From Clostridiales bacterium (GTDB lineage: Bacteria > Bacillota > Clostridia > Christensenellales > Borkfalkiaceae): a DNA stretch of 34,552 nucleotides. Shown here piece after piece: positions 17,224 to 17,671 of the stretch. Position 1 is the first letter of the stretch, and every line of letters starts with the position of its first letter. Position numbers and translations under genes: made by a program. The stretch is taken from contig SVHP01000016.1 of NCBI GenBank assembly GCA_015055735.1, forward strand, positions 1 through 34,552, written 5' to 3'. The notes below the pieces were generated by a model. The model was not told where the DNA came from. It did no database searches and was given only the letters and a program-made list of their open reading frames with translations.

Positions 17224-17389
17224 TAGGAAATTACTGGGAATTTAGACTGTTATGTCTGACATAATTATATGTAAAATTATGTTGTAATTACTTGCATAAT
17301 AAAACATTTAAAACAACTTACTTATTCCTTAACGCTATTCCGTTTCTTTTTAGAGAAATTAATACCCCCCATCACCTTATCTAAAACAA

Positions 17390-17416
17390 AAAGAGACGCC
17401 TTTTGATGTCTCTTTT
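17390..17416. terminator. Terminator-like hairpin
   Basis: AAAGAGAC gccttttgat GTCTCTTT with flanking A/T tracts. Confidence 0.7.
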
Positions 17417-17420
17417 CTTT

Positions 17421-17551
17421 TGGTGTGAAAGATAGGACTTTCGCCTGTGCGACCTACCCGCAAAATAGTCCACTGGACTATTTTTTCGCCTATCGGCGAA
17501 CACGCAACTAAAGTTGCTCGCTCCATATTCAATTCCTATCCTTTTTAGCAC
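17421..17551 (-). repeat. Compact multi-hairpin element beginning with a copy of the tRNA-Leu 3' end
   Basis: Outer stem GATAGGA/TCCTATC encloses TCGC-ctgt-GCGA, AAAATAGTCC-act-GGACTATTTT, TTCGCC-tatc-GGCGAA, GCAACT-aa-AGTTGC. Confidence 0.7.
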
Positions 17552-17553
17552 AA

Positions 17554-17588
17554 AAAAATACAGGCACCGTTATGGTGTCTGTATTTTT
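17554..17588 (-). terminator. tRNA-Leu terminator
   Basis: AAAAATACAGgCACC-gttat-GGTGtCTGTATTTTT. Confidence 0.8.
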
Positions 17589-17671
17589 TGGTGTGAAAGA
17601 TGGGACTTGAACCCACACGGATATCCATACGCCCCTCAAACGTACGCGTCTGCCAATTCCGCCACTCTCAC
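17589..17671 (-). tRNA. tRNA-Leu (anticodon GAG), CCA encoded
   Basis: Minus strand GTGAGAGTGGCGGAATTGGCAGACGCGTACGTTTGAGGGGCGTATGGATATCCGTGTGGGTTCAAGTCCCATCTTTCACACCA; acceptor GTGAGAG/CTTTCAC, anticodon stem-loop TACGT-TTGAGGG-GCGTA. Confidence 0.95.

Follow-up and report, generated by a model that had tools for sequence, protein, structure and literature searches.

Introduction

The tRNA-linked repeats (TLRs) of Escherichia coli were first described in 1978. Twenty-two of them are found at ten loci, and the final 18-19 bp at the 3' end of each are the same as in the tRNA or rRNA that lies upstream (PMC8144298). Three belong to rrn operons, where they sit between the dual terminators and are transcribed by read-through, and the TLRs of rrnA, rrnB and rrnD transcribed in this way bind Hfq and CsrA; the function of TLRs is not known, the phenotype once ascribed to the tyrT repeats having been retracted (PMC8144298). 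RNAs of the RtT family, which likewise lie near tRNA genes, are expressed in Actinobacillus (PMC4986893). At the E. coli loci that we examined directly (tyrT, lysT/W/Y/Z/Q/V and argQ/Z/Y/V), the TLRs carry hairpins and a closing stem specific to the tRNA, namely GTGAAGGAT..ATCCTGCAC for lys, GGGAGGAT..ATCCTCCC for arg and GGGGAAGGAT..ATCCTTCCCC for tyr.

Here we describe a comparable arrangement in a stretch of 34,552 nucleotides (the window; contig SVHP01000016.1) from a Clostridiales bacterium of the family Borkfalkiaceae. A sequence-only reading had proposed three origins for it: an attL/attR-like scar, a REP-like cassette that had captured a tRNA end, or a processed structured RNA; tRNA-linked repeats were not named among them. 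We think it probable, at roughly 0.6, that positions 17421-17551 of the minus strand are a TLR, a DNA unit of ~168 bp that has spread by recombination in trans at the T-loops of tRNA genes.

Results

A hairpin unit between two copies of a tRNA-Leu end

The duplication that drew attention to the locus was verified in every respect: TGGTGTGAAAGATAGGACTT (17421-17440) and TGGTGTGAAAGATGGGACTT (17589-17608) agree at 19 of 20 positions, lie 168 bp apart and have the same orientation, and TGGTGTGAAAGATGGGACTT is the 3' end of a tRNA-Leu(GAG) gene on the minus strand. The terminator hairpin reported before each copy on the plus strand is present (17388-17416 and 17552-17588) and, read on the tRNA strand, follows each copy. 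The outer stem, GATAGGA (17431-17437) with TCCTATC (17534-17540), does close over four hairpins as first described. The parts of the unit, in the order of the tRNA strand, are as follows.

17589-17671, minus strand: tRNA-Leu(GAG) gene, with the unit directly 3' of it (ARAGORN; Rfam RF00005, 45.8 bits)
17552-17588, minus strand: terminator 1, a hairpin and T-run immediately past the tRNA CCA (from the sequence)
17528-17541, minus strand: inverted copy of the T-loop and the 3' strand of the T-stem, reading GGATAGGAATTGAA in sense; forms the left arm of the closing stem
17520-17527, minus strand: left constant segment, type B, sense TATGGAGC (alignment A1)
17504-17517, minus strand: hairpin H1, GCAAC..GTTGC (helix 3)
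17485-17500, minus strand: hairpin H2, TTCGCC..GGCGAA (helix 4)
17462-17484, minus strand: hairpin H3, its tip conserved as GTCCAGTGGAC (helix 5)
17441-17452, minus strand: hairpin H4, sense TCGC ACAG GCGA, found in type B units
17421-17440, minus strand: duplicate of the 3' end of tRNA-Leu, from T-loop nt 57 through CCA, 19/20; forms the right arm of the closing stem
17388-17416, minus strand: terminator 2, past the tRNA-end copy (from the sequence)

The possibility that these palindromes fold no better than chance did not hold, since the fold scored z = -5.0 with the plus strand taken as RNA and z = -4.2 with the minus strand taken as DNA, and none of 200 shuffles was as good. In an Rfam search of the window the tRNA alone reached gathering level, and RtT (RF00391) had no match at that level; weak sub-threshold matches to other known Rfam RNAs at further loci were set aside as due to chance, being terminator-like or microRNA-like. 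The unit is crossed on the minus strand, between 17377 and 17551, by two short ORFs of 51 and 56 aa, which are almost surely spurious; gene callers may annotate similar ORFs beside tRNA genes in related genomes.

The units, of which 110 distinct ones were examined, share a common plan. On the tRNA strand, the T-loop to CCA of the tRNA is followed by terminator 1, an A/T-rich spacer, an inverted copy of the T-loop and the 3' T-stem strand (~nt 54-65), a first constant segment, H1, H2 and H3, a second constant segment, the tRNA-end copy (from ~C56/R57 to CCA) and terminator 2. The inverted copy occupies the equivalent position across the aligned units and shows covariation with the opposite arm of the closing stem, and terminator 1 of the window matches those of other units in spacing and position. 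Each unit has three or four hairpins. The first constant segment is TTAGGAGC in type A and TATGGAGC in type B, to which the window unit belongs; the second is GCGGGAGGCTCGAGAGAAG in type A and GCGGGTAGGTCGCACAGGCGAA in type B, with H4 inside GCGGGTAGGTCGCACAGGCGAA, and the tip of H3 generally reads GTCC-N-GTGGAC. Core types C and D are also found at tRNA-Leu(GAG), in sister species, so that there are at least four hairpin-core types overall. Among 59 units the period from CCA to CCA had a median of 168 (range 133-211), and a terminator-like hairpin lay past the tRNA CCA in 53 and past the copied CCA in 49; the two terminators are usually unlike, with near-duplicates in several of the 59 units (for example L132, L156, L157 and L168). 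Longer inverted tRNA fragments, comprising the T-arm and the 5' strand of the T-stem, were seen past the terminator at L085 and L033 without a hairpin core.

The hairpins are conserved as structure more than as sequence

In alignment A1, produced with MAFFT and not fitted to structure, changes on both sides occurred at 17 of 34 pairs, in 102 cells against 27.7 expected; no shuffle reached 102, and the signal was lost when one side was slid by 1-3 columns. Alignment A2 (98 units) gave a covariation of 0.506, against 0.143 when shuffled and at most 0.10 when slid, with changes on both sides at 26 of 34 pairs, although A2 was fitted to the covariance model and is hence biased towards it. The individual hairpins were paired in 94.9% (H1), 98.6% (H2) and 98.9% (H3) of cells, with double changes at 5/5, 6/6 and 7/10 pairs, respectively, and H4 exists in the compensatory variants TCGC/GCGA (L001/L028), CCAC/GTGG (L041) and CCGC/GCGG (L034). 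An inner 4-bp stem, GAGC/GCTC, was rejected as a general feature; it was paired in 71% of cells overall and found support in type A only.

In a rival explanation the unit is retained because it acts as RNA: read-through of terminator 1 would yield a structured transcript that ends in CCA like a tRNA and is limited by terminator 2. The rrA/rrB/rrF and rtT RNAs of E. coli offer a precedent, as do the read-through transcripts that bind Hfq and CsrA (PMC8144298) and the RtT-family RNAs of Actinobacillus (PMC4986893), and the unit sits between two terminators. On the tRNA strand, G.U exceeded A.C pairs by 42 to 15, as an RNA would have it; however, the excess came chiefly from the outer stem, and within the hairpins the difference (16 against 11) was not significant. 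Moreover, the TLR precedents are themselves without known function, their tyrT phenotype having been withdrawn (PMC8144298), in sister species most tRNA-Leu(GAG) loci have no unit or one of a different kind, and the 5' mirror form described below lies outside the 3' trailer of the tRNA transcript. We therefore regard an RNA function as the reason for the units' retention as rather doubtful, while noting that an RNA role and mobility could be compatible with each other.

Units are dispersed through the genome, the genus and the class

Counting copies and asking whether they adjoin tRNA 3' ends had been suggested as a check on the initial reading. In the window's own assembly (G000; 1.52 Mb, 76% complete) the unit was present at 9-10 dispersed places, other contigs included, most copies being 80-90% identical; a search with the type A constant-segment pattern returned further copies there, and the reversed control pattern returned none. 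The alternative of a single copy without covariation thus failed on both counts. A covariance model based on 33 units gave matches in 33 of 44 species genomes of the genus, with up to 12 units in one of them (G348). In another genus of the family, a second model located units beside tRNAs or tRNA ends (L190, L191/L202), and other families of the class also contain them (L048, L049, L052, L192, L193, L196-L200, L207), at a frequency that is a lower bound because these wider searches were run under stricter filters. The TLR-type layout is thus present far outside the Proteobacteria. Five matches of the R2 search (L194, L195, L201, L203, L205) had the H3-like hairpin alone in common with the units and were left out of the counts, and an exact search of viral contigs with one 23-base core pattern gave no match. 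The genomes are mostly incomplete assemblies, and contigs frequently break off at units.

Unit ends match the adjoining tRNA

An intact tRNA gene on the same strand lay 39-79 nt upstream of 69 of the 110 units, and these tRNAs represent 21 isoacceptors; many of the remaining 41 units lie in tandem arrays or past a tRNA 3' end that is truncated, as is seen where an island ends. Among the 69, the copied end agreed with its own tRNA at 21/21 positions in 30 units, 20/21 in 24 and 19/21 in 5. The mean match was 19.3/21 to the own tRNA and 12.2/21 to tRNAs of other isotypes, and the own tRNA was the best among all isotypes in 62 of 69 units, in a permutation control that compares isotypes and counts related species, which are not independent samples. 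The outer stem is variable because it follows the adjoining tRNA: in each place the closing stem is matched anew to the gene beside it. The boundaries of the unit are tRNA loops, that of the 3' form lying within the T-loop at TT^C56.

Ends that match the local tRNA would also be expected of a duplication arising from that gene by replication slippage, template switching or gene conversion, with the hairpins as by-products. The near-identical terminators 1 and 2 at L132, L156, L157 and L168 also fit such an origin, as does the exchange of terminator and core combinations between genomes G023 and G029. The two terminators are usually unlike, however, and 21 unrelated tRNA genes share one hairpin core, which is found again in other genera; the core itself must therefore have been copied between loci, and local duplication is in our judgement an unlikely explanation.

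Filled and empty sites suggest a module

At tRNA-Leu(GAG), genome G033 has the tRNA, terminator 1, the unit and the tRNA end, followed by CTAATAACCTAAGTTGAACC.., whereas in the unit-less G027 the tRNA is followed by CTAATAACCTAAATTGAACC... The terminator of this empty site matched the distal terminator of G033 at 54 of 60 nt and the proximal one at 38 of 60, which is the random level; the L071/L072 comparison has the distal terminator at the empty site. The unit is therefore a module running from T-loop to T-loop, with a tRNA end and a terminator of its own. Loss through recombination between the 20-bp repeats would account for the filled/empty pair equally well, and its upstream flanks have diverged. 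Units in tandem were found at L009, L049, L054, L088/L168, L123 and L200; those at L088/L168 are identical, and the arrays at L049 and L123 have mixed terminators. Together with the exchange between G023 and G029, the arrays are also consistent with a module. In sum, units are dispersed and sometimes tandem, and a given tRNA locus has one in some species and none in others.

Direct repeats and filled or empty sites resemble integration at tRNA 3' ends, and to this extent the idea of an attL/attR-like scar was borne out. In its fuller form this explanation takes the unit as the scar or decoy site of tRNA-integrating islands, in which the tRNA-end copy attracts or records integrases. Five units (L018, L026, L033, L037, L043) do lie past truncated tRNA 3' ends, like the attR ends of islands, and island-like sequence is common past tRNA-Leu(GAG) in the genus. 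A scar, however, would be without a conserved, covarying hairpin core such as the one found at 21 isoacceptors, and the islands at tRNA-Leu(GAG) have other ends and no core; we consider this explanation very improbable.

The 3' end of tRNA-Leu(GAG) is apparently a frequent integration site of varied islands (L064, L066, L069, L074, L075, L086, L087). At L065 the same island end, GGGCTTTTGCCCACTT, comes after a tRNA-Leu(CAA) end that stands alone.

A mirror form lies at tRNA 5' ends

Units of the opposite polarity were found at genes for tRNA-Pro, -Ala, -Lys and -Thr (L058, L063, L209-L212, L214-L216, L218, L223, L224); the coordinates of three are as follows.

L209:1487-1654, plus strand: mirror unit
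L212:1487-1654, plus strand: mirror unit
L218:1487-1648, plus strand: mirror unit

In these, nt 1-19 of the tRNA, as far as the GG of the D-loop, are followed by GGCGACGCG, a GTCCTGTGGAC hairpin, AGCC..GGGC hairpins, an inverted D-stem copy, ~60 nt and the intact tRNA; at L216 there is an interruption further along the tRNA. The inverted copy is specific to the D-stem, reading GCGCTACC for Pro and GCTCTACC for Ala, Lys and Thr. In ten measured copies the 5' half matched its own tRNA at 19/19 positions (18/19 in one), with a period of 162-170. We know of no earlier description of the mirror form, among TLRs or otherwise, and a literature search for insertion on the 5' side of tRNAs returned nothing, a result of little weight. 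Mirror units at D-loops argue for insertion at tRNA loops at the level of DNA.

Proposed insertion at tRNA loops and candidate enzymes

In the scheme that we favour, a trans-acting recombinase inserts the units as DNA into the loops of tRNA genes. A unit would be added behind a tRNA gene, bringing a second tRNA 3' end and its own terminator, and would spread as DNA by recombination at the T-loop; the folded hairpin block may be what the enzyme recognises, possibly as single-stranded DNA, as with integron attC. Insertion would leave the tRNA gene intact because the unit supplies the missing tRNA end and terminator, and insertion of the mirror form would do so because that unit supplies the 5' half and upstream sequence. 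One such scheme explains the dispersion, the local tRNA ends, the filled and empty sites, the tandem arrays and the mirror form. Against this model, neither integron integrases nor IS200-type transposases nor a family of tyrosine recombinases could be linked to the units in general. By itself, a recombinase model does not explain how a unit gains the end of a new tRNA, and the near-duplicate terminators of several units also fit local duplication.

A family of tyrosine recombinases (306-318 aa, MKYKNWLNEWLALYVKPTTK..) was found at L226:727-1644 (G030:C14), just past the unit that follows tRNA-Leu(CAG), at L228:548-1501 (G005:C4), near tRNA-Leu(CAA), and at L231, L233, L234 and L236-L238. It was rejected as the autonomous partner of the units: it also lies beside other tRNA genes, shows no general link to units, and its other members have none close by. 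At several of these loci the next ORF reads like a secreted lipoprotein.

More tentatively, tiny gene-less units that target tRNA loops from both sides might constitute a general mobile class of bacterial DNA, moved as folded single strands by a recombinase in trans, of which the E. coli TLRs would be one branch; this is a possibility that we hold well below the insertion model itself. The 3' kind would enter the T-loop and replace the tRNA 3' end and terminator, and the 5' kind would enter the D-loop and replace the tRNA 5' half and upstream region.

Discussion

As far as we know, the origin of TLRs is an open question. More than 100 copies, several core types, presence and absence at the same loci, tandem arrays and a mirror form provide comparative material beyond the 22 copies of E. 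coli, with which this question becomes directly testable. The units also point to one reason why assemblies break, and why spurious short ORFs arise, beside tRNA genes.

Integron attC sites are recombined as folded single strands. Like integron cassettes, the units start at the insertion point and form arrays that grow at one site, and like attC they have a folding site in which an inverted and a direct copy of a core site enclose hairpins that vary. Their core site, however, is the tRNA T-loop and T-stem, not GTTRRRY/RYYYAAC, and they are gene-less. By inspection of the aligned units the R'/R'' cores GTTRRRY and RYYYAAC were absent, and membership of attC was rejected, the likeness being an analogy of layout. 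The integron integrase model TIGR02249 was over its cut-off in 0 of 44 genomes, and in G000 (76% complete) it gave no match at E<=0.001.

A mobile palindromic cassette with a captured tRNA end came closest among the early proposals, except in its identification with REP. The units resemble REP/RAYT elements in being short, palindromic, non-coding and dispersed; unlike them, they are bound to tRNA genes and carry the end of the adjoining tRNA, both directly and inverted. The IS200/RAYT transposase PF01797 was found in 6 of 44 genomes, with two matches in G000 and none in the unit-rich G029 and G348, a distribution that does not track the units, and REP/RAYT membership was rejected.

The closest likeness is to the TLRs of E. 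coli (tyrT/rtT, rrA/rrB/rrF). Like these, the units lie on the same strand directly behind a gene with which they share the 3' end (19/20 in the window, and 20-21/21 with the own tRNA in 54 of 69 units), have a similar period (median 168, against 178 at tyrT), and combine a closing stem specific to the tRNA with internal hairpins; they occur at several loci per genome, with one to several units per locus, as against one to five repeats in TLRs. Like the rrn TLRs, they are flanked by two terminators (PMC8144298). The RtT model RF00391 gave no match at E<=10 in G000, the E. coli control being positive. By layout, then, the units are TLRs, whereas in sequence, given the lack of a match to RF00391, they are a new family unrelated to those of E. 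coli. They differ from E. coli TLRs in that a terminator normally stands between the tRNA and the hairpin block, and in having at least four core types, at 21 isoacceptors, in far greater numbers. The TLR layout has been known mainly from E. coli, and to it the units described here add the 5' mirror form and far greater copy numbers.
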